A stretch of 64,000 nt of DNA, from contig JAHFUM010000001.1 in assembly GCA_023265135.1 (NCBI GenBank), positions 122,574-186,573 of the forward strand, read 5' to 3'. Positions 23,985-48,721 of this stretch are shown here, piece by piece. The notes below the pieces were generated by a model. It was not told the origin of the DNA and searched no databases. It was given only the letters and a program-made list of their open reading frames with translations. The stretch's first letter is position 1; every line of letters starts with the position of its first letter. Source of the DNA: Nitrosarchaeum sp. (lineage in GTDB: Archaea > Thermoproteota > Nitrososphaeria > Nitrososphaerales > Nitrosopumilaceae). The translations under genes and the position numbers were made by a program.

Positions 23985-24474
23985 GAGTTGCCCCTCGATC
24001 AGTAATTTTTATTTCAACGTCTTGTGAAACAAATGGTTTTACTTGAAGTTGGGCTGGTGTGTAAATCAAACCCTCCTTGCTAAATGAAGAAAGCTCATAG
24101 TCATTTGTCATATACAATGCATAAAATGGACATGCGTCAACACATAATCCACAAAATACACATTTACCGTAATCAATTTGTGGCATGATGGCTTTTTTAT
24201 TATGTTTGTATTCTTCTGGAACTTTTACCATTGCAATTGCTTCGGCTATTCCTTCACATGCGATGGAACATAACTGACATCCAGTACATTTGTCATGGAA
24301 TAACATATGACGTCCTTTAGAACCTGCAATTCCAACACCTGTGGACGGATCAAATTGGTAGCCATCACCAACAAACTTTAGTTTCTCTTCAGGATATCGT
24401 AATGTAAATCGTTTAATAGCTAAATGTTTAATTCCAGAGTTTAATGCCTTGATAATTCCAGTAGCTGTATTCAT
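23977..24474 (-). CDS. nuoI: Complex I subunit NuoI (two [4Fe-4S] clusters)
   Basis: 165 residues. Two ferredoxin motifs bind clusters N6a and N6b: CTGCQLCSIAC and CVFCGLCVDACPF. The first lacks the usual Pro after the fourth Cys (it is followed by Glu), a small departure. The N-terminal 50 residues include KRFTLRYPEEKL, as in other NuoI. It passes electrons toward NuoB in the peripheral arm. With no NuoEFG genes here, NuoI is the likely entry side for electrons. It overlaps nuoH by one base. Confidence 0.94.
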   Translation of the reverse strand: MNTATGIIKALNSGIKHLAIKRFTLRYPEEKLKFVGDGYQFDPSTGVGIAGSKGRHMLFHDKCTGCQLCSIACEGIAEAIAMVKVPEEYKHNKKAIMPQIDYGKCVFCGLCVDACPFYALYMTNDYELSSFSKEGLIYTPAQLQVKPFVSQDVEIKITDRGATHG

Positions 24475-25772
24475 TACAATATTCCTCCAGGCCCCAAGAC
24501 TCCAGCGTACAACAAACCGAGTGCTATAAAGATGTTAACGAATGCAAGTCCAATTAATTTGTACCAACCAAGACTCAACAACATGTCAATTCGAATTCTT
24601 GGGAAAACTCCTCTTGGCAATAGAATGAAAAAGATCACCCCAACTGTCTTTAATACAAACCATAGAACACCGTTTAACATCTCTTGTGAAAATATAGGTA
24701 GCCCAGGAATTTTTGCATGTATTGGACCCATAACTATTCCATCTTTGATAATCTCTTCAGGAAAAGGAGGCCAAATCATTGGTCCAGTCCAACCACCTAG
24801 GAATAAAACAACAAACAATGCTGCAAATGCATAAAGTTTCAAGTATGTTCCTAACTGAACAAGACCGTAAATCATTCCAGAAAATTCAGTTAACCAACCA
24901 GCAACAATTTCACTTTCTGCTTCTGGTAAATCAAATGGGATTCTTTCTAATTCGGCCAATATTGTAATAAAGAAAATAATTGCGCCTATCGGCAAAAATA
25001 TAATCCATGGAAAATGGGTTTGACTAGCAACTATTTCAGAAAGATTTAGAGTTCCTGTAAGAATTACTACTCCTAACAATGAAAGAATTAACGGAATTTC
25101 AAATGACACCATTTGATGTAACGCCCTAATTCCACCAATGAATGGGAATTTACTATTTGAAGACCATGCAGAAAGAATAGTTATGATTGGAAAGAAACCA
25201 ATAATTGCAAATACGGCAAGTAAGCCAACATCCACATCTGCAACTACCCAACCAGGGGCAACAGGAATTAATGCAACAAATGCTGCTGCTGTTGCAACAA
25301 ATATTACAGGAGCAGCCCAAAAGATGGGTTTGTCAGCTTTTGCAGGAATAATAATTTCTTTTGAGATTAGCTTTAGCCCATCTCCCATTAGTTGTAGGAT
25401 TCCTTCAATTTTTCCACAGTAAAAAGGACCCACTCTAAGTTGTAGTTTTGCCAGCATTTTTCTTTCTATAAATATTGTTCCAGCTGCAAGTAATGCTGCA
25501 AATCCAAATCCAGGAAAAGCAGCAATTTTAAACAAATCAGTAGTCATGAAGGCTTTCAAAATTGGAAGTGTTCTAGAAGGATCTGCCAACCAAGTTAATG
25601 CAAGAAATGGTGTAAGTAATTCACCATTAATTACTGGCATTTCAATATAGAATAAAACGAGCATAACTGCCGGGATACCAATTAATGTAAAAATCAGCAG
25701 TATCCAAAATGCATTATCTAGAATAGACTTGACAAATTCGCTAAACTTGAAGTTTGGTGCAATAACAGACAT
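24474..25772 (-). CDS. nuoH: Complex I subunit NuoH
   Basis: 432 residues, longer than E. coli NuoH (about 325) through N- and C-terminal extensions; eight or more spans. The family signatures are ERKMLAKLQLRVGPFYCGK, ELERIPFDLPEAESEIVAG and the quinone-site charges between. It anchors the peripheral arm and forms the quinone entry channel. The N-terminal 70 residues add about two hydrophobic stretches before the ERK motif. One base separates it from nuoD. Confidence 0.94.
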   Translation of the reverse strand: MSVIAPNFKFSEFVKSILDNAFWILLIFTLIGIPAVMLVLFYIEMPVINGELLTPFLALTWLADPSRTLPILKAFMTTDLFKIAAFPGFGFAALLAAGTIFIERKMLAKLQLRVGPFYCGKIEGILQLMGDGLKLISKEIIIPAKADKPIFWAAPVIFVATAAAFVALIPVAPGWVVADVDVGLLAVFAIIGFFPIITILSAWSSNSKFPFIGGIRALHQMVSFEIPLILSLLGVVILTGTLNLSEIVASQTHFPWIIFLPIGAIIFFITILAELERIPFDLPEAESEIVAGWLTEFSGMIYGLVQLGTYLKLYAFAALFVVLFLGGWTGPMIWPPFPEEIIKDGIVMGPIHAKIPGLPIFSQEMLNGVLWFVLKTVGVIFFILLPRGVFPRIRIDMLLSLGWYKLIGLAFVNIFIALGLLYAGVLGPGGIL

Positions 25773-26909
25773 TTATCTATCTGCCTCCACTGGCCAATAA
25801 TTAAGGCTCCAATATACTGCGGGCATATTTCCAAGTTTTTCTCCTTTGAGAAGATATGGTAATGCTATCAAATTTCTAAATGAACCAACACTTAGTTTTA
25901 CTCTATAAGGTTCAGGTTTTGCATCAGAGACAATATAGCAACCTAATGAACCTCTACCTGATTCTACACGTTTGTATACTGAATCAAATCCTTTTCCTTT
26001 TGGATTTGGTTTTAGTTTTACTCTAACAGAACCAGACTTTGGCATTTTTTGCAATGCTTGTCTAATTATGTTACAGCTTTCCATCATATCGAGCCATGGA
26101 ATTTTAGATCTTGCATAAGAATCTCCCTCCTTCATCACATTACTGTGAACATCTAACTCTTCATAGACATCATAAGGTTCCTTTTTTCTGAGATCATAAT
26201 CAACTCCACTGGCTCGAAGAACAGAACCGGTTGTACCTAATCTAATTGCATCTTCACGTGATAAAACACCAGTGTTTTCAGTTCTAGCAATTAAAATTGG
26301 ATTATCATAGAAAACTGCTGCATATTCTTTAATTCGTTTTTCAAAATAGTTAACTTGCCTTAAACAAACATCTTCAAAGTTTGGAGGCAGATCATTTCTT
26401 ACACCACCTGGTACAAAATGAGCATGAGTAACTCTGGCTCCTGTCATTTTTTCTAGTAAATCAATTAATAATTCACGATCACCTGCTGGCCACATAAACA
26501 TTGTAGAGTGACCTAAGAATATTCCATAGATTGCAAGCCAATACATTGTATAAACACATCTGTTCAATTCAGATGCAATAACTCGAATGTATTTGGCTCG
26601 TTCTGGTACTTCAAGACCAAGTATTTCTTCAACCCCTAAAACATACGGATACAAAATATTACAAGAATCATGAATTACAGGTCTTTCTAAATGTGGGATA
26701 TTTGTGATATAGTTTCTATATTCAGCCATTTTTTCTTCACCGCGATGAACATAACCAGGATCAGGATCACATGCGACAATAAAGTCACCATCAATTTGGA
26801 CAATAATTCTCATATGACCAGAACCAGGATGTTGTGGTCCAACATTGAGAGTCATGATCCTCTCGTCTACTTTCTGAAGTGCTAGTCCTGGCGGTAATTC
26901 TTTATTCAT
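25773..26909 (-). CDS. nuoD: Complex I subunit NuoD (49-kDa type)
   Basis: 378 residues. Start region NVGPQHPGSGHMRI contains the conserved quinone-site HPGSGH; YVHRGEEKMAEYRNY and GTTGSVLRASGVDYDLRK are also family signatures. It forms the quinone cavity together with NuoB, derived from the hydrogenase large subunit but without metal-binding Cys. It is separate from NuoC here, 2 bases downstream of it. Confidence 0.95.
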   Translation of the reverse strand: MNKELPPGLALQKVDERIMTLNVGPQHPGSGHMRIIVQIDGDFIVACDPDPGYVHRGEEKMAEYRNYITNIPHLERPVIHDSCNILYPYVLGVEEILGLEVPERAKYIRVIASELNRCVYTMYWLAIYGIFLGHSTMFMWPAGDRELLIDLLEKMTGARVTHAHFVPGGVRNDLPPNFEDVCLRQVNYFEKRIKEYAAVFYDNPILIARTENTGVLSREDAIRLGTTGSVLRASGVDYDLRKKEPYDVYEELDVHSNVMKEGDSYARSKIPWLDMMESCNIIRQALQKMPKSGSVRVKLKPNPKGKGFDSVYKRVESGRGSLGCYIVSDAKPEPYRVKLSVGSFRNLIALPYLLKGEKLGNMPAVYWSLNYWPVEADR

Positions 26910-26911
26910 CG

Positions 26912-27496
26912 CTATCTTCCTTTAATTGCAAAGTCCTTTCTTAGTGGTGGTAAATCTGCCCAATCTTCTGGCAAAAGTAATCTTCGATTATCAGGATGAC
27001 CTTGAAAATAAACTCCAAACATTTCAAAAATCTCTCTTTCATGAAATTCTACACTGTAAAATATTTCTCTAAGACTAGGAAGTCGTGTAGCATCGTTTCC
27101 TGGAATAGGATTTTCTTCTCTTTGAGCTGTTGTTGCCAATGCAAGAATTTGTCTTGATAGTGAAGGATCAGTATAGGAACCCAAATGATAAACAACTTCA
27201 ATTTCCTTGTCCTGAGGATAATCTACGCCTGATACAGATTCAGCATGATCAAAATTTAGAACATCTCTCAGAAATTCAGCTACTTCTTTAACGTCATCTC
27301 TGCCAACATTAATTCTAACTCTGTCAGGTTTTACAAATGCTACTTTAATTCTAGTGCCAAATTTTTCAACAATTTTATCTGCAAGTTCTTTTTCAAATTT
27401 TGGTAATTCAATTTCTTTTCCTGGACTTATATTAGCAGATGTAGGTTCTGCATCAGATACTGTTTCAATTTGTTCATTATTAGAATCAGAACTCAT
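26912..27496 (-). CDS. nuoC: Complex I subunit NuoC (30-kDa type)
   Basis: 194 residues. The first 35 are acidic and low in complexity, then comes the NuoC fold with HAESVSGVDYPQDKEIEVVYH, FYSVEFHEREIFEMFGVYFQGHPDNRRLLLPEDW, the family signature (split here by position near residues 145-180). It supports NuoD and NuoB in the peripheral arm. Its ATG shares a base with the nuoB stop. Confidence 0.94.
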   Translation of the reverse strand: MSSDSNNEQIETVSDAEPTSANISPGKEIELPKFEKELADKIVEKFGTRIKVAFVKPDRVRINVGRDDVKEVAEFLRDVLNFDHAESVSGVDYPQDKEIEVVYHLGSYTDPSLSRQILALATTAQREENPIPGNDATRLPSLREIFYSVEFHEREIFEMFGVYFQGHPDNRRLLLPEDWADLPPLRKDFAIKGR

Positions 27497-28020
27497 TATA
27501 CATACTTCCTAGCCTTCATTCTCTTGATTTTTTCTTGTAATAACATACATCCTTGAATAAGAGTTTCAGGTCTAGGAGGACAGCCTGGAACATAAACATC
27601 TACAGGTAAAACCCCGTCAATACCTGGAAGTACATTGTATGAATCAAAATACAATCCACCAGTAATTGCACAAGCACCCATTGCAATAACATATTTTGGC
27701 TCTGGCATTTGATCATAAACTAAACGAAGACGTGGTGCCATTTTTCTTGTGATAGTTCCCTGAACTACAATCAGATCACATTGTCTAAGTGAACCAAATG
27801 CCTCAATGATACCAAATCTTTCAACATCATATCTTGGACTAGATGCAGCGCCAAATTCTACACTACAACATGCAGTTTCAATATGAACAGGCCAAAGAGA
27901 CCAAATTCTACCCCAGTTGATTGCATATCCTAATGGCTTATCAATTGCTTTTTCTAAAATATCACCTAACTTTCCAACAAATACATTTGCATTCTGTGGT
28001 GTTATCAGGTCTTTTAGCAA
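27496..28020 (-). CDS. nuoB: Complex I subunit NuoB (cluster N2)
   Basis: 174 residues. Cluster N2 ligands are visible as ETACCSVEFGA, then VQGTITRKMAPRL, IAMGACAITGG and VPGCPPRPETLI. It is the last cluster before quinone. Length and motif order are standard. It follows nuoA after 40 bases, the largest gap in the operon, which contains an AT-rich stretch that could hold a second promoter. Confidence 0.96.
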   Translation of the reverse strand: MLKDLITPQNANVFVGKLGDILEKAIDKPLGYAINWGRIWSLWPVHIETACCSVEFGAASSPRYDVERFGIIEAFGSLRQCDLIVVQGTITRKMAPRLRLVYDQMPEPKYVIAMGACAITGGLYFDSYNVLPGIDGVLPVDVYVPGCPPRPETLIQGCMLLQEKIKRMKARKYV

Positions 28021-28060
28021 TCTAATCCCTCATTTTCATAATTTGAATTTGTATAAAAAA

Positions 28061-28435
28061 CTACCATATGTCTCTTCTCCCTGATTGATGTAATGCAAAA
28101 GCCATTGCAGCAAACATAATTGCTAAGAAACCAATAATTGGCAAAGTTGCAGATTTTGGAAGTTCTAAAAGTGCACTTCCCCATGCATACAAGAAAATTG
28201 CCATAACATCAAAAACAACAAACATCAAAATGTAAGCATAATACTGCATCATAAAGTGAGTTCGTCCTTCACCAGATGGAACTTGTCCACATTCCATTGG
28301 CAAAAATTTAACGGGATTACTTCTTTTTCTAGGAGATATCATTCTAGAAATTAAAAGTGCAGGTGCCATAGCTACTACCGCAAATCCAAACATTAACACT
28401 ACGGTACTATAATTGCCCGCTAATTCCCCGACCAA
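28061..28435 (-). CDS. nuoA: Complex I subunit NuoA
   Basis: 124 residues with three spans. The central loop KFLPMECGQVPSGEGRTHFM carries the conserved Glu-Cys-Gly near the quinone site, and the second span has FVVFDVMAIFLYAWG with the conserved Asp. First gene of the nuo operon; the promoter should lie in the 109-base gap shared with the divergent peroxiredoxin gene, where a TATA-like TTTTAATTTAAA run is seen. Confidence 0.95.
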   Translation of the reverse strand: MVGELAGNYSTVVLMFGFAVVAMAPALLISRMISPRKRSNPVKFLPMECGQVPSGEGRTHFMMQYYAYILMFVVFDVMAIFLYAWGSALLELPKSATLPIIGFLAIMFAAMAFALHQSGRRDIW

Positions 28436-29022: not shown

Positions 29023-29535
29023 TTATTCAATTTCTGCAACTATATCGTTTTTAGCTACGGTTCCGCCAACTTTAATTTTGATAGATTTAATCAAACCATT
29101 CTTATGAGATTTAACAGATACTTGCATTTTCATAGATTCTAGAGTACAAATTACATCTCCTTGTTTTACAGAGTCACCTTCTTGAACAGCAATAGAAACA
29201 ACTTTACCAGGAATTTGACTTTTTAATGTTATCTGAGCATCAGAAGAACTTGCACCACCAGAATTTTTGAAAACAATTTTATCGAAATCAGTATACATGT
29301 TTAGTGTAATTGGTAAATTATCAATGATGAGATTCATTTGGTTTGTTGAATTTTCAAGATATTTTGCTCTGTGATATTTTTGGTCCAGAACAAATTCAAT
29401 TCCTTTTGAATCCATTTTTAAGATTCTTATTTGATGTTTAACTGAATTGATTTTAATAACATATTCATTGTTACCAAGATTTTCAGTGATCTCTCCATCA
29501 AATGTTTTTTCGATATCTTTTATTCTATAATCCAT
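29023..29535 (-). CDS. Biotin carboxyl carrier protein of acyl-CoA carboxylase
   Basis: 170 residues. The C-terminal biotinyl domain (about 98-170) has the biotin site ESMKM, with the acceptor Lys136, and the mirror-image hairpin ends IPGKVVSI and AKNDIVAEIE. The N-terminal part is a beta-rich linker domain as in propionyl-CoA carboxylase carriers. It carries CO2 on biotin between the two enzymes encoded just upstream. Third gene of the operon, 6 bases after accC; convergent with the peroxiredoxin gene. Confidence 0.92.
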   Translation of the reverse strand: MDYRIKDIEKTFDGEITENLGNNEYVIKINSVKHQIRILKMDSKGIEFVLDQKYHRAKYLENSTNQMNLIIDNLPITLNMYTDFDKIVFKNSGGASSSDAQITLKSQIPGKVVSIAVQEGDSVKQGDVICTLESMKMQVSVKSHKNGLIKSIKIKVGGTVAKNDIVAEIE

Positions 29536-29541
29536 GTATCG

Positions 29542-31038
29542 TCAACCTAATTTATTTTTCCAAGCAGAGTTAGTAGATGTAGAATTTTGAATTCTACTCT
29601 TAAAATATTCAGAATAAATAATAGCAGCTGCTAGAGCAGCCTCACTTTTTTCAATTTTTTCGGTTTTCAGATCTTCTTTTAATCTATCGATGATGTTATG
29701 TCGATTTAGAAAATCTGTAGAAAGATTGCCATTTTTGTATTCATCAGTATTCAAGATAGTTTTGTAAAGTGGTATTGAGGTCTCAACACCTTGAATATAA
29801 AAATCGTTTAATGCATTAAGCATTCTGGTTCTTGACTCCTCAAATGTTTGACCCCAGGTACAAAGTTTGGCCATTAAAGAATCATAAAATGGGGATACTG
29901 TACAACCAGAATAGAGATAGGTATCACATCTAACACTAGGTCCAGATGGAATGACTACATCAGGTACAGGACCGGTAGAAGGAGCAAAATCCAAGAATGT
30001 ATCTTCTGCATTTATTCTGCATTCAATTGCATAACCATTCATTTTGAGATCTTTTTGTTTGAATGGAAGTGGTTCTCCATTTGCGATATCTATTTGAAGT
30101 TTAACAAGATCTAATCCGGATACAAGTTCAGTAATTGGATGTTCTACTTGCAATCTAGCATTGATTTCTATAAAATAGAATTCGCCATTATCTGCCCTAA
30201 GAAATTCTGCAGTGCCGAGATTAGTATAATCGACTGCCTTAGATGCTTTAACAACCAATTCACCAATTCTATCTCTTGTTTCTTGATCAACTATAGGCGA
30301 AGGTGTTTGTTCAATAAGTTTTTGATTACGTCTTTGAATCGAACATTCTCTTTCAAATATATGCACAGCGTTACCATGTTTGTCTCTTGCCATTTGATAT
30401 TCAATGTGTCTAGTTTTTTGAAGAAATTTTTCAACAATTATTGCAGATTTGCCAACTGCAGAAATTGATTCACTTGTAACTGTTTCAAAACCTTCTCGTA
30501 ATTCTTTATCATTATTTACTAATCTAATTCCACGACCACCACCACCAAAAACAGATTTTAGTAGTACGGGATATGAAATATCGTTTGCAATTTTTAATGC
30601 CTCCTCAACATCTTTTACAAGACCAGGGCTTCCTGGCACAGTTGGAACTTTGGCTTTTAACATTGCAGATTTACATTGCATCTTATCACCACAAAGATCC
30701 ATAGATGCTGCAGACGGGCCAATGAAATTTATTTTATTTTTTTCACATTTACTTGCAAAATCAGAATTTTCTGAAAGAAAACCGTAACCAGGATGTATAG
30801 CATCTGCACCAGAGGATAATATGGTTTCAATAATTTTTTCTTGATTCAAATAAGATTTTGCAGGGGCAGCTTCACCAATATGATATGCTTCTGTAGCTTG
30901 TTTAACATGTAAAGAATTGTAATCCTCATCAGAATATACTGCTACAGTTTTGATTCCAAGTGCTTTGCATGTCTTAATTACACGTAAAGCAATTTCGCCT
31001 CTATTTGCGATAAGAACTTTCTCAATCATATTAATCAC
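29542..31038 (-). CDS. accC: Biotin carboxylase subunit of acetyl/propionyl-CoA carboxylase
   Basis: 498 residues. ATP-grasp biotin carboxylase with IANRGEIALRVI at the start, the glycine-rich ATP loop KSVFGGGGRGIRLV, and the catalytic block FIEINARLQVEHPITE. A C-terminal extension of about 45 residues follows the usual end. It carboxylates biotin using ATP and bicarbonate. In Nitrososphaerota the complex fixes bicarbonate onto acetyl-CoA and propionyl-CoA in the 3HP/4HB cycle. The start may be GTG 31038, overlapping the previous gene by 4 bp, or ATG 31029. Confidence 0.95.
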   Translation of the reverse strand: MINMIEKVLIANRGEIALRVIKTCKALGIKTVAVYSDEDYNSLHVKQATEAYHIGEAAPAKSYLNQEKIIETILSSGADAIHPGYGFLSENSDFASKCEKNKINFIGPSAASMDLCGDKMQCKSAMLKAKVPTVPGSPGLVKDVEEALKIANDISYPVLLKSVFGGGGRGIRLVNNDKELREGFETVTSESISAVGKSAIIVEKFLQKTRHIEYQMARDKHGNAVHIFERECSIQRRNQKLIEQTPSPIVDQETRDRIGELVVKASKAVDYTNLGTAEFLRADNGEFYFIEINARLQVEHPITELVSGLDLVKLQIDIANGEPLPFKQKDLKMNGYAIECRINAEDTFLDFAPSTGPVPDVVIPSGPSVRCDTYLYSGCTVSPFYDSLMAKLCTWGQTFEESRTRMLNALNDFYIQGVETSIPLYKTILNTDEYKNGNLSTDFLNRHNIIDRLKEDLKTEKIEKSEAALAAAIIYSEYFKSRIQNSTSTNSAWKNKLG

Positions 31039-32582
31039 AAATTGATGTTTCCATGTTTTCTTGGAAGTTGTTTTTCTCTTTTGTTTGCAAGCATTTCTAA
31101 AGCTTTGATCAACATAGGCCTTGTTTCAGCTGGATCAATTACATTATCGATAGTACCATGAGATGCTGCAACGTAAGGATTTTCAAATTTTTCTGAGAAT
31201 TCATTTATTAGTTGTTTTTTGAGAGCTTCTGGATCATCTGCGCCAGATAATTCCTTTCTATACATAATTTTTACAGCTGCTTCAGCACCTAATACAGCGC
31301 ATCGTGCAGTTGGCCATGCATAATTTATGTCAGTTCTCAGATTTTTACTTCCCATGGCTATGTATGCACCACCGTATGCTTTTCCTATGACAATTGTAAT
31401 TCTAGGAACAGTTGCTTCACAATAAGCATAGAGAAGTTTGCTACCATGTCTAATGATACCATTATGCTCTTGATTAGAACCTGGCATGTAACCAGGAGTG
31501 TCTACAAATGTAATAATTGGAATATTGAACGCATCACAAAACCTAATGAATCTAGCTGCTTTATTGGATGAGTCAATATCAAGTGCACCAGCAAGATGCA
31601 ATGGTTGGTTAGCAACGATACCAACTACTTTACCATTCAATCTACTAAAACCAACGACAATATTTGGTGCGAATAATTCATGAACCTCAAAAAATTCATG
31701 ATCATCAACAACAGAAAGAATAATTTCTTTCATGTCATATGGCTGTAACGGATTATCAGGAATAATATTGATGATATTATGATCAAGTCTGTTTGGATCG
31801 TCATCAGTTTTTATTTTTGGTGGTTCTTCGGTATTATTTTGGGGAAGAAATGAGATTAATTTTTTAATATAATCCATACATTCGTATTCATTCTTTGCAA
31901 CAAAATGTGCAACCCCACTTTTTATTCCATGTGTCATTGCTCCACCCAAGTCATCAAATGAAATTTCTTCTCCCAAAACAGTCTTCACTACATCAGGTCC
32001 AGTTACAAACATGGTTCCTACTTTGTCAACCATTATAACAAAATCAGTCATTGCGGGTGAATATACAGAACCACCAGCCGACGGGCCAATACTTGCAGTT
32101 ATTTGTGGAATAACACCAGAAGCTAATTGATTGTGATAAAAAATATCGGCGAATCCATCAAGACTCATAATTCCTTCTTGAATTCTTGCTCCTCCTGAAT
32201 CCATTATTCCAATGATTGGACAACCTGTCTTAACTGCATGATCCATTAATTTTGTAATTTTTTTAGCTCCCATTTGACTTAGTGTACCACCAAGTACAGT
32301 AAAATCATAAGCAAAGACAAAAATTTGTCTGCCATTTACTGTTCCATAACCACCAACAACACCATCAGTAAAGAATTTCTTCTTCTGCATATCATATTCA
32401 TGATAATGATGAGTTGTAAGTGGATCAATTTCAGTAAAAGTACCTGCATCTAATAAAAGATCGATTCTCTCTCGAGCTGTTAATTTACCTTTATCATGTT
32501 GATCTTTGATTTTATCTTGCCCTCCTCCTTGTAATGAAATTTTATTTCTCTTAGAATATCCCTCAATTTTTTCGAAGTGCAT
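31035..32582 (-). CDS. pccB: Carboxyltransferase subunit of acetyl/propionyl-CoA carboxylase
   Basis: 515 residues with two crotonase-like halves. Oxyanion-hole segments are DSGGARIQEG and SIGPSAGGSVYSPA in the N half and FVDTPGYMPG, GKAYGGAYIAMG in the C half. It moves the carboxyl group from biotin to acetyl- or propionyl-CoA. It is the first gene of the three-gene operon. Length and both halves are standard for archaeal bifunctional carboxylases. The key early carbon-fixation step makes this operon central to autotrophy. Confidence 0.95.
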   Translation of the reverse strand: MHFEKIEGYSKRNKISLQGGGQDKIKDQHDKGKLTARERIDLLLDAGTFTEIDPLTTHHYHEYDMQKKKFFTDGVVGGYGTVNGRQIFVFAYDFTVLGGTLSQMGAKKITKLMDHAVKTGCPIIGIMDSGGARIQEGIMSLDGFADIFYHNQLASGVIPQITASIGPSAGGSVYSPAMTDFVIMVDKVGTMFVTGPDVVKTVLGEEISFDDLGGAMTHGIKSGVAHFVAKNEYECMDYIKKLISFLPQNNTEEPPKIKTDDDPNRLDHNIINIIPDNPLQPYDMKEIILSVVDDHEFFEVHELFAPNIVVGFSRLNGKVVGIVANQPLHLAGALDIDSSNKAARFIRFCDAFNIPIITFVDTPGYMPGSNQEHNGIIRHGSKLLYAYCEATVPRITIVIGKAYGGAYIAMGSKNLRTDINYAWPTARCAVLGAEAAVKIMYRKELSGADDPEALKKQLINEFSEKFENPYVAASHGTIDNVIDPAETRPMLIKALEMLANKREKQLPRKHGNINL

Positions 32583-32708: not shown

Positions 32709-33026
32709 TTATGAATTCAAATTCAAGAGTGGAAAATTCTTTTTTACAGACTTTTGATAAGAATTAAAAGAATTTTTCTCTTCACTGCATTTTTTGCATA
32801 TACATAACTGAGATACCCTTTGAATGTCACAGGTATCTTGAAATTCACATTGTGAGCATCCAGCTGAGCTTCTACATATAATGCACTGAAGCTCATTTAT
32901 TTGGGCACATTTTTCATGTTTTACCCCTAATCCTTTTGCCCATAATCCAATTTCATTTACTTCAATTTTTTCATTACAAATGACACAAGTACCAGGAAAT
33001 TTCATAGGAATTTTTCTCCAGCTCAT
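32709..33026 (-). CDS. Cys-rich putative zinc protein, 105 aa
   Basis: Thirteen Cys in 105 residues: CVIC near residue 14, a lone Cys in HEKC, then CIIC, CSQC, CDI and CICKKC. The spacing suggests two or more zinc ribbons. The N-terminal block KFPGTCVICNEKIEVNE with WAKGLGVKH resembles small zinc domains found on DNA-processing enzymes. It overlaps the RFC-L stop by 4 bp, so it is translated with the clamp loader and may act in replication or repair; that is inference from context. No known name. Confidence 0.75.
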   Translation of the reverse strand: MSWRKIPMKFPGTCVICNEKIEVNEIGLWAKGLGVKHEKCAQINELQCIICRSSAGCSQCEFQDTCDIQRVSQLCICKKCSEEKNSFNSYQKSVKKNFPLLNLNS

Positions 33027-36288: not shown

Positions 36289-37128
36289 CTATCCGTATGA
36301 TTCATACTTGATTTCATAACTTCCATCTTTACGTTTTTCTTCTTTTGTAACAAATCCTTTTGGTCCCAAGTATTCAATAACTCCATCAATTGTACCTTGA
36401 TATCCACAAATGTAGACTTTAGTATTTGCAGGAGTAATTTCTTCGCCAACCATTTCTTCTAAGGGGGAAACACCATTTTTGTTTGGTTTAAAGAATGATT
36501 CTACTCTGCCTACATGTCCTGCCCAAGATCGGTTAAAGAATTCTTTTGGTCTACTAATAGCTGCCCTGTATCTAAAATGCCATTGATCTTTTCCTCTTTC
36601 AATACTCTCAAGTTCCAAATTTGTCAATAATTCTTTGTAACTAAGTTCATCAACATAACTTGCACCATGAAAAACAATGATCTCTCTTTTATCCCCTGTA
36701 TCATGTAGATGTTTAGCAAAAGCTATGAATGGTGCAAGACCTGTTCCACCTCCAACGCAAACTATTCTTCGATTATCAGGTTTGCCGTTTGGTAATTTAT
36801 CATCAATTGTTAAAGCGTTACCTGTAGGATCTCCCAAATATACTTCATCACCAACATTTGTATAAAATAATTCAGATGTAACACGACCAGGTAAAGGCTT
36901 CCTTACCCATCTAATTACAAATTCAAAATAATCTCGGTTTTCAGGATGAGATGCAATTGAATATGCTCTTCGAACTATCTTTTGTTCAGAAGGTATTGGT
37001 AGCCCTATAGTTAGAAATTGACCTGTTGTATATTTTGGCATGCCATTATTTGGGACTAAACGAATAACAACAAGATCCTCTTTCAGTAAATGCATATAAG
37101 TAATTTTTGCCTTTTGCTCTATTACCAT
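36289..37128 (-). CDS. FNR-like FAD/NAD(P)-binding oxidoreductase, copy 1
   Basis: 279 residues of the ferredoxin-NADP reductase superfamily. The FAD site is RRAYSIASHPENRDYFE (R-x-Y-S motif), the pyridine-nucleotide site is VGGGTGLAPFIAFAKH, and the C-terminal CGYQGTIDGVIEYL matches the nicotinamide-side motif. It ends in ESYG like its paralogue at 47876-48721, from which it differs mainly in a DPTGNALTI/KPTGRALLI type loop. It likely passes electrons between NAD(P)H and a ferredoxin, perhaps the dicluster ferredoxins in this window; partner unproven. Confidence 0.88.
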   Translation of the reverse strand: MVIEQKAKITYMHLLKEDLVVIRLVPNNGMPKYTTGQFLTIGLPIPSEQKIVRRAYSIASHPENRDYFEFVIRWVRKPLPGRVTSELFYTNVGDEVYLGDPTGNALTIDDKLPNGKPDNRRIVCVGGGTGLAPFIAFAKHLHDTGDKREIIVFHGASYVDELSYKELLTNLELESIERGKDQWHFRYRAAISRPKEFFNRSWAGHVGRVESFFKPNKNGVSPLEEMVGEEITPANTKVYICGYQGTIDGVIEYLGPKGFVTKEEKRKDGSYEIKYESYG

Positions 37129-37569: not shown

Positions 37570-38646
37570 TTAAATGTAAATTCGTTTCATTGTTTCTACA
37601 AGAATTGGAACCTCTTTATCAATTATTTTTTCTACAGCTGGTACTATACCGGTCCTAGCTTTTACATTTTCTTCATATATCTCAGAAATTTGATCTCTAA
37701 ACAATAATTTGATTCCGGGTAGTGTAGTTATTCCCTCATCAACTGTTCTAGGTTCTGATAAATCTAAAATCAATGTACCTTTCTTTTTTTCTTCCATAAC
37801 CAATCTTATTCTGTCAAAAGTAATCAAGAAATAATCAGACGTAGTTGCAACAAAGATAATATCGTATTTATCTAATCCAGATAAAACTTCATCAAATGCA
37901 AGTGGTTTTCCACCCAATATTTTAGAAAATCCAGTTGAGCGTTCAATAGTTTTACTTGTGACGTCAAACACAAATCCTTTTTTATTAAGAGTTTTAGCAA
38001 CCATTGCTGCAGGTTCACCTGTGCCAATTAATAAAATACGTTTCTTAGCATCTAAACCTGCTTTTTCATCTACAATTTTAACAGCAACATCTCCAAGAGA
38101 AATTACATCTTTACTTATTCCAGTTGTGTCTCTAACACGAGTTGCAATTCTAATTACGCTTTCAAATAGTTTATTCAAAACTAAACCCGAAACATTAATC
38201 TGTTTTGCTTGTGAAAGAGATGCTTTAATCTCATTCAATATCTCTTCTTTTCCTACAACGAGTGAATCCAAACCACATGCTAATTTTAAAAGATTAAGAT
38301 AAACGTCTGTACTTTTGTAAACCTCTAGAGTTTGATCAAAATGATCAATATCAATTTGTTCTAGTTCTGATAAAGATTGCCAAGTTTCTTTCATTTGATT
38401 TAAAATAAGAGATTTTCCTTCAGTTCTTCTTCCATCTGGAATATCTCCTGTTTCCAGATTACTCACCGTAAATATTTCAATTCTACTAGCAGTCTGAATT
38501 ATTATACACTCGGCAACACCTGGAATTTTCTTAAAAGTCTCACATGCAACTTTAAGATCTTTGAACCTAAATCTCGACAAGGTGTGAAGCGGTATATTTT
38601 TGAATGTGACTCTTGCATTAATGACATCAAATTTTATTTCGCTCAT
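37570..38646 (-). CDS. hemA: Glutamyl-tRNA reductase-like protein with altered catalytic residues
   Basis: 358 residues with the HemA plan: N-terminal catalytic domain, NADPH domain (ILLIGTGEPAAMVAKTL near 203) and C-terminal dimer helices (VDEGITTLPGIKLL). GluTR normally has the nucleophile in S/T-C-N-R; here the site reads TASR (52-55), so the Cys is Ala53. The conserved His of HLFRVASGLDS is Asn118 (NLLKLACGLDS) and the G-E after it is G-K133. The nearest Cys is 47. Either another nucleophile is used or the protein is not a working GluTR. Annotated by homology. Confidence 0.8.
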   Translation of the reverse strand: MSEIKFDVINARVTFKNIPLHTLSRFRFKDLKVACETFKKIPGVAECIIIQTASRIEIFTVSNLETGDIPDGRRTEGKSLILNQMKETWQSLSELEQIDIDHFDQTLEVYKSTDVYLNLLKLACGLDSLVVGKEEILNEIKASLSQAKQINVSGLVLNKLFESVIRIATRVRDTTGISKDVISLGDVAVKIVDEKAGLDAKKRILLIGTGEPAAMVAKTLNKKGFVFDVTSKTIERSTGFSKILGGKPLAFDEVLSGLDKYDIIFVATTSDYFLITFDRIRLVMEEKKKGTLILDLSEPRTVDEGITTLPGIKLLFRDQISEIYEENVKARTGIVPAVEKIIDKEVPILVETMKRIYI

Positions 38647-38654
38647 ATCATCAT

Positions 38655-39332
38655 TTACTCTTTAAGTTTATTCCTTCCACCTTTTGCAGTACGAAAAACA
38701 TTCATTCCAATGAAATAATTTTCGTAAAGAGATTCTAAATATTCAAGTTCTTGTTGTGTTGAAACTATGTCATTTTTAGATGCATGAGGATCATTTTTTA
38801 GATTCTTTAGTTTTTGTTTAGTTTCTTCTAAAAATTTTCCTACTCCAGATTCATAGTTAGACATACCACCAAATTCTGGACTCATTACATGTTGAGGAAT
38901 ATATTTTGGAGTGTTATCAGTTGGGATCTCCGCTTTTCTCGTGAGCTCGTCTTGTTCTTCTGATGTAAGAATAGGTCTTGGAAACCTATCTTTTTTGGCT
39001 AGGAAAAATTCGGGTTCGTCCATTTCTCTTCTAAATATTTCCTCACCTTTTCGCTGATTAGTAAATGGTGAGGGTTTACTTGCAGCCACTTTGACTTCTG
39101 CAGCTATTGCTTTGTATTCTGCCTCTGCTGCCGCTTCTGCTGCTGCTTTAGCAGCTGCGGCTTTTGCTAATGCTGCTTCTACTTCAGCTTCTGCTTGAGC
39201 TACTGCTGCTGCAGCTTTTACCGCTGCTTCTATTTTTTCTGATGCGACTTTTGTTACATCATTTGGTGTAGATTCTGATGTTGAAACTTCAGGTGTTGTT
39301 TCTGCTTTAGATTCCTTACTTTCTTCAGACAT
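38655..39332 (-). CDS. Ala/Glu-rich coiled-coil protein, 225 aa
   Basis: Residues 1-30 are acidic and Ser/Thr-rich; 30-85 are an Ala-Glu-Lys coiled coil (VAQAEAEVEAALAKAAAAKA and so on); the rest is a more conserved-looking domain with EIFRREMDEPEFFLAKKDR, SPEFGGMSNYE, and a second helix pair. The end is basic. Eight bases upstream of hemA, so in one transcript. A scaffold or DNA-associated role is possible, but no family is recognised. Confidence 0.75.
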   Translation of the reverse strand: MSEESKESKAETTPEVSTSESTPNDVTKVASEKIEAAVKAAAAVAQAEAEVEAALAKAAAAKAAAEAAAEAEYKAIAAEVKVAASKPSPFTNQRKGEEIFRREMDEPEFFLAKKDRFPRPILTSEEQDELTRKAEIPTDNTPKYIPQHVMSPEFGGMSNYESGVGKFLEETKQKLKNLKNDPHASKNDIVSTQQELEYLESLYENYFIGMNVFRTAKGGRNKLKE

Positions 39333-47875: not shown

Positions 47876-48721
47876 ATGGTAGTAGATAACAAAGCAACCA
47901 TCACATATGTTCAGTTGCTTAAAGAAGATCTTGTGATTATTAGATTAGTACCAAAAGATGGTCCAGTTCCAGAATATCAAGCTGGCCAATTTATTACATT
48001 GGGATTACCAAATCCTACTGAAGGTGGAAAAATTGTTAGAAGAGCGTATTCAATTGCATCCCACCCAGAAAATAGAAAATATATTGAGCTTGTAATTAGA
48101 TGGGTAAGAAAACCTCTCCCAGGTAGACTTACTACGCAGATATTTAATGCAAAAGAAGGTGATGAGATTTTATGGTTAAAACCCACAGGTAGAGCACTTT
48201 TAATAAATGAGACACTTCCAAATGGAGAAAAAGATAACAGACGAATTGTTTGTATTGGAGGAGGAACTGGTCTTGCACCATTTGTAAGTTATGCACAACA
48301 TCTACATGATACAGGAGATAAACGAGAAATTATTGTTCTTCACGGTGCAAGTTATGTTGATGAACTTAGTTACAAAGAACTACTTACAGAGTTGGAAAAT
48401 GAAAGTGTAGCAAGAGGAAAGGAACAATGGAATTTCAAATACAGGGCTTCTATTAGTAGACCACAAGAATGGTTTAACAGATCTTGGGCAGGTCAGCTTG
48501 GAAGAGTTGAAACATTTCTTAGACCAAGAGATAATGAAATCTCACCATTAGAAGAATTGATTGGGGATAAAATCACTATGGAAAACACGATGTTTTATGT
48601 TTGTGGCTGGCAAGGAACAATTGATGGAGTAATGGATTTCTTAAAACCAAAAGGTTTCGCCACAGAACATGATAAACGTTCAGATGGAAGCTTTGAAGTA
48701 AAGTACGAATCATACGGATAA
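47876..48721 (+). CDS. FNR-like FAD/NAD(P)-binding oxidoreductase, copy 2
   Basis: 281 residues, colinear with copy 1 at 36289-37128. Motifs match: RRAYSIASHPENRKYIE, RWVRKPLPGRLTT, IGGGTGLAPFVSYAQH, CGWQGTIDGVMDFL, and the same ESYG end. Compared with copy 1 the FAD-side loop and the C-terminal third differ. Two copies suggest different partners or growth conditions. Likely an NAD(P)H:ferredoxin-type reductase; flavodoxin-like or other acceptors are possible. Confidence 0.88.
   Translation: MVVDNKATITYVQLLKEDLVIIRLVPKDGPVPEYQAGQFITLGLPNPTEGGKIVRRAYSIASHPENRKYIELVIRWVRKPLPGRLTTQIFNAKEGDEILWLKPTGRALLINETLPNGEKDNRRIVCIGGGTGLAPFVSYAQHLHDTGDKREIIVLHGASYVDELSYKELLTELENESVARGKEQWNFKYRASISRPQEWFNRSWAGQLGRVETFLRPRDNEISPLEELIGDKITMENTMFYVCGWQGTIDGVMDFLKPKGFATEHDKRSDGSFEVKYESYG

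Follow-up and report, generated by a model that had tools for sequence, protein, structure and literature searches.

The HemA2 locus and its surroundings

The window analyzed here, i.e., the whole stretch of 64,000 nucleotides from a near-complete genome of Nitrosarchaeum sp. (1.82 Mb in 25 contigs), harbors a gene for a protein resembling glutamyl-tRNA reductase (GluTR, HemA) and designated HemA2 below. It is preceded by the gene of a protein termed P225, and flavoprotein and carboxylase genes are encoded nearby:

29023..29535, minus strand: presumed accB (biotin carrier), the third gene of the carboxylase operon, assigned by position and with no NCBIfam match
29542..31038, minus strand: accC, biotin carboxylase subunit
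31035..32582, minus strand: pccB, carboxyltransferase subunit of acetyl/propionyl-CoA carboxylase, the ancestral neighbor of the P95 domain
36289..37128, minus strand: FNR-like NAD(P)H flavoprotein adjoining HemA2, the copy that tracks HemA2
37570..38646, minus strand: HemA2, a GluTR-fold paralogue of 358 aa; ATG-started ORF, without the catalytic Cys and the C-terminal dimerization domain
38248..38250, minus strand: HemA2 codon 133 (Lys), where canonical HemA has an invariant Glu (Glu99 in M. kandleri)
38293..38295, minus strand: HemA2 codon 118 (Asn), replacing the active-site His (His84 in M. kandleri)
38413..38457, minus strand: HemA2-specific insertion, residues 64–78 (the NLETGDIPDGRRTEG region), with near-invariant D71 and R73 and partly low pLDDT
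38488..38490, minus strand: HemA2 codon 53 (Ala), where GluTR has its catalytic Cys (position 48 in M. kandleri)
38655..39332, minus strand: P225, a protein of an undescribed family, ending 8 nt upstream of HemA2
38658..38951, minus strand: P95 domain of P225, the only P95 gene in the window genome
39006..39038, minus strand: P225 motif IFRREMDEPEF, found solely in HemA2-bearing genomes
47876..48721, plus strand: second FNR-like paralogue

Complex I genes (24474–28435; NuoB and NuoD were recognized, and their neighbors are presumably NuoA, C, and H) lie beside the carboxylase operon, an arrangement conserved in much of the family. A small cysteine-rich protein without a known Pfam family is encoded at 32709–33026, flanked by a gene resembling the replication factor C large subunit and by the P95/carboxylase locus; its position is conserved across ammonia oxidizers.

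A GluTR fold with an eroded active site

HemA2 was compared with the GluTR (HemA/GtrR) references PF05201 and TIGR01035 and with the structures 1GPJ, 5CHE, 5YJL, and 4N7R. Like GluTR, it comprises the N-terminal and the Rossmann domains, with 25% identity to 1GPJ (Foldseek) and ca. 48% to the HemA of its own genome. The Pfam domains GlutR_N (2e-28) and Shikimate_DH (7.6e-19) were both matched, and the score against NCBIfam TIGR01035 (195.8 bits) falls under the equivalog cut-off of 209.55. The NADPH domain, described as intact in the first-pass annotation, is so in the AF2 model (pLDDT 90), and the top matches of this model in the PDB (Foldseek) were all GluTRs, with none better.

At the same time, HemA2 departs from GluTR in the absence of the catalytic Cys, the variability of the His, the replacement of the Glu by Lys, an extra loop bearing D71 and R73, the missing dimerization domain, and the possession of a partner gene, P225. 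The sites were numbered by alignment to the GluTR of M. kandleri (1GPJ, positions 48, 84, and 99), the deposited chain of which has Ser at position 48, presumably representing an engineered mutant. The nucleophile motif of the window protein reads Q-T-A53-S54-R55 (QTASR) instead of QTCNR, and G132-K133 stands in place of G-E. Residues were counted in 100 aligned HemA2 sequences, 98 of which cover position 53, and in 24 copies of canonical HemA (HemA1), all of which possess the Cys, the His, and the Glu. Position 53 of HemA2 is occupied by Ala in 71 sequences, Ser in 23, Thr in two, and Gln and Gly in one each, and by Cys in none of the 98; position 133 holds Lys (86), Trp (6), Arg (3), Asn (3), Thr (1), or Ser (1), so that the Glu is absent. 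Hence, the missing catalytic Cys noted in the first-pass annotation and the absence of the Glu extend to the entire clade, whereas the His, replaced by Asn118 in the window protein, is variable rather than lost among its relatives (His in 57 of 100, Asn in 34, Arg in six, Pro in two, Ser in one). Neither of the refuting conditions given in that annotation was borne out, no relative in this clade having Cys53. Overall, the old active-site positions 53, 118, 133, and 134 drift freely among HemA2. In E. coli HemA, the substitution E114K, at the equivalent of K133, presumably inactivates the enzyme.

Other parts of the protein are conserved. Arg55 is kept in all 98 sequences, Ser128 is kept in 98 of 100, and the G-x-G of the NADPH domain is retained; the NADPH-loop Arg at position 232, present in 24 of 24 HemA1, is represented in HemA2 by Arg (60), Lys (29), Met (10), or Gln (1). 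Several residues became newly fixed, i.e., D71 and R73 of the inserted loop as well as H102, D104, Q105, D271, and F316. The loop itself is conserved though pLDDT drops below 50 at residues 66–71 and 76–78 of the AF2 model; from this conservation despite low model confidence we infer that residues 64–78 may represent a partner-binding segment. The C-terminal dimerization domain has no Pfam match in HemA2, the chain of which stops at residue 358. Past position 356, 89 of 100 HemA2 carry 0–2 residues, two carry nine, and nine carry 58–67, vs. 80–89 in HemA1; the partial remnants of the domain found in some HemA2 therefore indicate its stepwise loss.

The dN/dS ratio is 0.08–0.13 for HemA2 and, across identical pairs of genomes, 0.04–0.11 for HemA1; HemA2 is thus under purifying selection, evolving slightly faster than HemA1. 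A sequencing error or a decaying pseudogene is ruled out by these values, by the open reading frames, and by the 98 Cys-less relatives. The named relatives with 83–92% identity to the window protein belong mostly to Nitrosarchaeum.

Canonical HemA in the same genome and the origin of HemA2

The window genome also possesses a normal full-length hemA (340.6 bits against TIGR01035; Cys, His, and Glu present), clustered with a fused ahbA-ahbB, a precorrin-2 dehydrogenase-like gene, and hemB; hemL, hemC, and hemD lie on this contig as well, ca. 20 kb from the cluster. Heme synthesis is therefore independent of HemA2, and the possibility that HemA2 stands in for a missing hemA is ruled out. Heme is still needed, as supposed in the first-pass annotation, but it is supplied by the other copy; the same set of genes supports the alternative given there, in which HemA2 is a paralogue serving another role. 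One family genome (G067), 95% complete, yielded neither kind of hemA.

HemA2, with presence called for each genome from match scores, was detected in 61 of 96 near-complete Nitrosopumilaceae genomes, being absent from 35; it was not found in any other family sampled among 300 genomes of the phylum. In a tree with outgroups from four families, HemA2 forms a single clade (support 100/100), which branches together with the normal HemA1 from genome G128 (100/99) and is nested within the HemA1 of Nitrosopumilaceae. The monophyly of HemA1 excluding HemA2 was rejected by the AU test (p = 3.9e-7). This nested position together with the AU rejection indicates that HemA2 was born by duplication inside Nitrosopumilaceae. 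Its occurrence is patchy, requiring at least five gain or loss events when mapped on the HemA1 tree, suggesting horizontal transfer as well as loss. The HemA1 sequences closest to HemA2 are those of G128 (L167, L211) and related g19 genomes; this points to the G128/g19 lineage as the source of the duplication, possibly followed by later transfer across the family. A phage or other mobile origin was rejected, no viral relative having been found.

No paper describing the Cys-less HemA paralogue was found in the literature covered, and a 2010 survey of archaeal heme genes gave a single copy for N. maritimus, which under the rule set out there is the clustered one. HemA2 thus seems to be undescribed, and it has probably acquired a new job unrelated to heme.

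The partner protein P225 and its P95 domain

P225 is encoded immediately upstream of HemA2 in all 79 named loci with enough sequence, at a distance of 3–20 nt, and the pairing persists where the neighborhoods are rearranged (L061, L062). The protein has no relative in Pfam or NCBIfam; the PDB and Pfam searches yielded only coiled-coil or helical matches of low significance. Its layout as predicted by AF2, confident for the helices only (pTM 0.33), comprises a long N-terminal helix, a linker, and a C-terminal helical hairpin, the latter representing the P95 domain.

P225 is homologous to P95, from which it differs by an N-terminal extension. P95 stands alone, as a protein of 67–200 aa, in HemA2-less Nitrosopumilaceae genomes and in the families f2, f3, and f8. 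The domain was found in f1, f2, f3, and f8 and was absent from the other members of the class sampled, a distribution corresponding to that of ammonia oxidizers, given the lineage identity that we infer for these families. The conserved motifs of P95 are S-x-YE and NYNxGMNxFRRAxGGR, and its shortest form has 67–76 aa (L189–L195). The motif IFRREMGEPEF of P225 was detected in 57 of 61 near-complete genomes with HemA2 vs. 0 of 35 without it; three of the four exceptions carry variant codons or residues of the motif, the fourth being G159. Some of the HemA2-less genomes encode P95 with long N-terminal tails, yet without this motif.

In all seven loci from outside the family, as well as in the HemA2-less loci of the family examined, P95 is located directly upstream of pccB-accC-accB. 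Three further loci (L064, L164, L165) display the order P225-HemA2-FNR-pccB, with P225 in the usual place of P95 and HemA2 after it. P95, previously undescribed, is itself a candidate subunit of the carboxylase. It resembles the acyl-CoA carboxylase epsilon subunits of actinobacteria (PF13822; AccE, PccE) in its small size and in the adjacency of its gene to that of the carboxyltransferase; the epsilon subunits govern the assembly as well as the activity of their enzyme, and their genes likewise adjoin the carboxyltransferase gene (PMC13118682). Still, P95 differs from them in sequence, in the predicted helical hairpin, in its restriction to ammonia-oxidizing archaea, and in gene order (upstream of the carboxyltransferase gene vs. 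downstream for the epsilon gene), and PF13822 matched neither P225 nor any of 19 P95 domains. The likeness is one of analogy, not of membership.

Against the link with the carboxylase, P225 has left pccB in the genus of the window while staying with HemA2, the pair having moved several kilobases from the carboxylase genes. It can thus be supposed that HemA2, P225, and the FNR-like protein form a module independent of the carboxylase, the ancestry of P225 being of historical significance only. The pair resides away from pccB in several other genera as well, and part of genus g17 keeps a native P95 beside pccB with P225-HemA2 elsewhere (L157/L062, L162/L163). However, P225 is the last P95 gene in genomes such as that of the window (G000) and must there also do the work of P95, which makes complete independence unlikely, although it is the strongest of the competing explanations.

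The FNR-like flavoprotein

The FNR-like protein encoded next to HemA2 resembles ferredoxin-NADP reductase in possessing both the PF00970 and PF00175 domains, but it scores far under all the NCBIfam equivalog cut-offs. At least two copies of the FNR gene were found in 23 of 26 genomes with HemA2 vs. 0 of 18 genomes without it, which have none or one each. One copy is ca. 0.9 kb or less from HemA2 in 29 of the 30 genomes measured (median gap of 403 bp); its orientation relative to HemA2 varies between genomes, which counts against the explanation favored below. There are three phylogenetically independent contrasts, all concordant (sign test, p = 0.25), so the data are less independent than the Fisher p-values suggest. 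The associations of HemA2 with P225 and the FNR-like protein are strong as linkage, although they reflect few independent events.

Possible functions of HemA2

HemA2 is not a Cys-type GluTR; it is a conserved protein under selection, tied to P225 and correlated with a second FNR-like protein. Since the catalytic residues and the dimerization domain were lost and the fold, the Rossmann domain, and the loop were kept next to an adjacent partner gene, it can be regarded as a pseudoenzyme that has acquired a new function in binding. As P225 is akin to a protein of the carboxylase operon, the most plausible target is the acetyl/propionyl-CoA carboxylase of the CO2-fixing cycle. The best explanation as a whole, held tentatively and at slightly less than even chances, is that HemA2 is a dead GluTR recruited as a partner of P225 and linked with the carboxylase, where it would probably serve as an NADPH-binding regulatory or scaffold subunit. 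Of these elements, the first-pass annotation anticipated the paralogue; P225, the link with the carboxylase operon, and the duplicated FNR were missing from it.

Since inactive paralogues are frequent regulators of their relatives, HemA2 could instead regulate tetrapyrrole synthesis as a dead decoy, binding Glu-tRNA, HemL, or heme and throttling the active HemA. The retained GluTR fold, Arg55, Ser128, and Arg331 would suit this role; the latter corresponds to Arg300 of M. kandleri, which binds citrate, a possible mimic of tRNA. However, HemA2 is located outside the hem cluster in every genome examined and is tied to P225, homologous to a carboxylase-linked protein, and to a carboxylase-derived locus; most HemA2 lack the domain that forms the V-shaped dimer, making a heterodimer with HemA1 by that route unlikely. 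A decoy function appears, therefore, quite improbable. Non-catalytic proteins acting around GluTR are exemplified by the plant GluTR-binding protein and FLU; HemA2 is, unlike these regulators, the dead GluTR fold itself, its partner is a different protein, and no homology was found.

It is even less probable that HemA2 works as an NAD(P)H-dependent reductase on a ready thioester, such as an acyl-CoA (e.g., the malonyl-CoA produced by the carboxylase), with no need of a catalytic Cys. GluTR operates by a thioester mechanism (PMC7242693, PMC6399207), and its chemistry is itself a thioester reduction (PMC7242693); moreover, the 2018 model of N. maritimus counted the reductases for malonyl-CoA, acryloyl-CoA, succinyl-CoA, and succinic semialdehyde among the unidentified enzymes of the cycle (PMC6038301). 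The newly fixed H102, D104, Q105, D271, and F316, the Rossmann domain, and the adjoining FNR and carboxylase-derived genes could be read in the same way. Against it speak the free drift of the old active site and the distribution of HemA2: the 35 family genomes missing it, like the other families of ammonia oxidizers, are all presumed to use the same cycle, which argues against an essential role as malonyl-CoA or other acyl-CoA reductase. As many Nitrosopumilaceae keep the carboxylase without HemA2, the latter is not essential to the CO2-fixing cycle, a point that counts against the favored explanation.

Finally, a glutamyl-tRNA reductase still active via another nucleophile, as the first-pass annotation alternatively proposed, or via direct hydride transfer is highly improbable despite the preserved fold, Arg55, and NADPH domain: no other residue has become fixed at the nucleophile site, the His and the Glu have disappeared as well, the dimerization domain is missing, the genome encodes a complete canonical HemA, and Cys47 is ruled out as a substitute, occurring equally in canonical HemA (22 of 24) and missing from two HemA2.

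Returning to the recruitment of HemA2 by P225, the following chain of events can be proposed. A normal HemA of Nitrosopumilaceae would have lost its nucleophilic Cys and, in most cases, the dimerization domain and become the obligate partner of P225, the extra segment of which may bind the new loop of HemA2. The retained Rossmann domain would bind NADP(H), and the pair of HemA2 and P225, aided by the duplicated FNR, would adjust or organize the carboxylase according to the NADPH/NADP+ state. Physical binding of HemA2 to P225 is likely, and contact of the pair with the carboxylase is nearly, but not quite, an even possibility. NADPH sensing by HemA2 seems rather doubtful. The presence of Met instead of the NADPH-loop Arg in about a tenth of HemA2 counts against the favored explanation. 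The combined idea of HemA2 acting via P225 as an NADPH-responsive carboxylase subunit, which would constitute a novel redox control of archaeal carbon fixation in Nitrosopumilaceae, is speculative and, on balance, unlikely.

Implications

HemA2 occurs in many marine and freshwater ammonia-oxidizing archaea alongside the normal HemA. The family-model label “glutamyl-tRNA reductase” covers two proteins in many Nitrosopumilaceae, one of them a conserved pseudoenzyme with a fixed partner, and the gene is a warning against scoring it as hemA in pathway annotation. P95, situated at the head of the carboxylase operon and restricted to ammonia oxidizers in the sample, looks like an unrecognized carboxylase component. 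The family ranks with the most abundant archaea and contributes substantially to dark carbon fixation; HemA2-P225 together with P95 offers a testable lead on the assembly or regulation of archaeal CO2 fixation.
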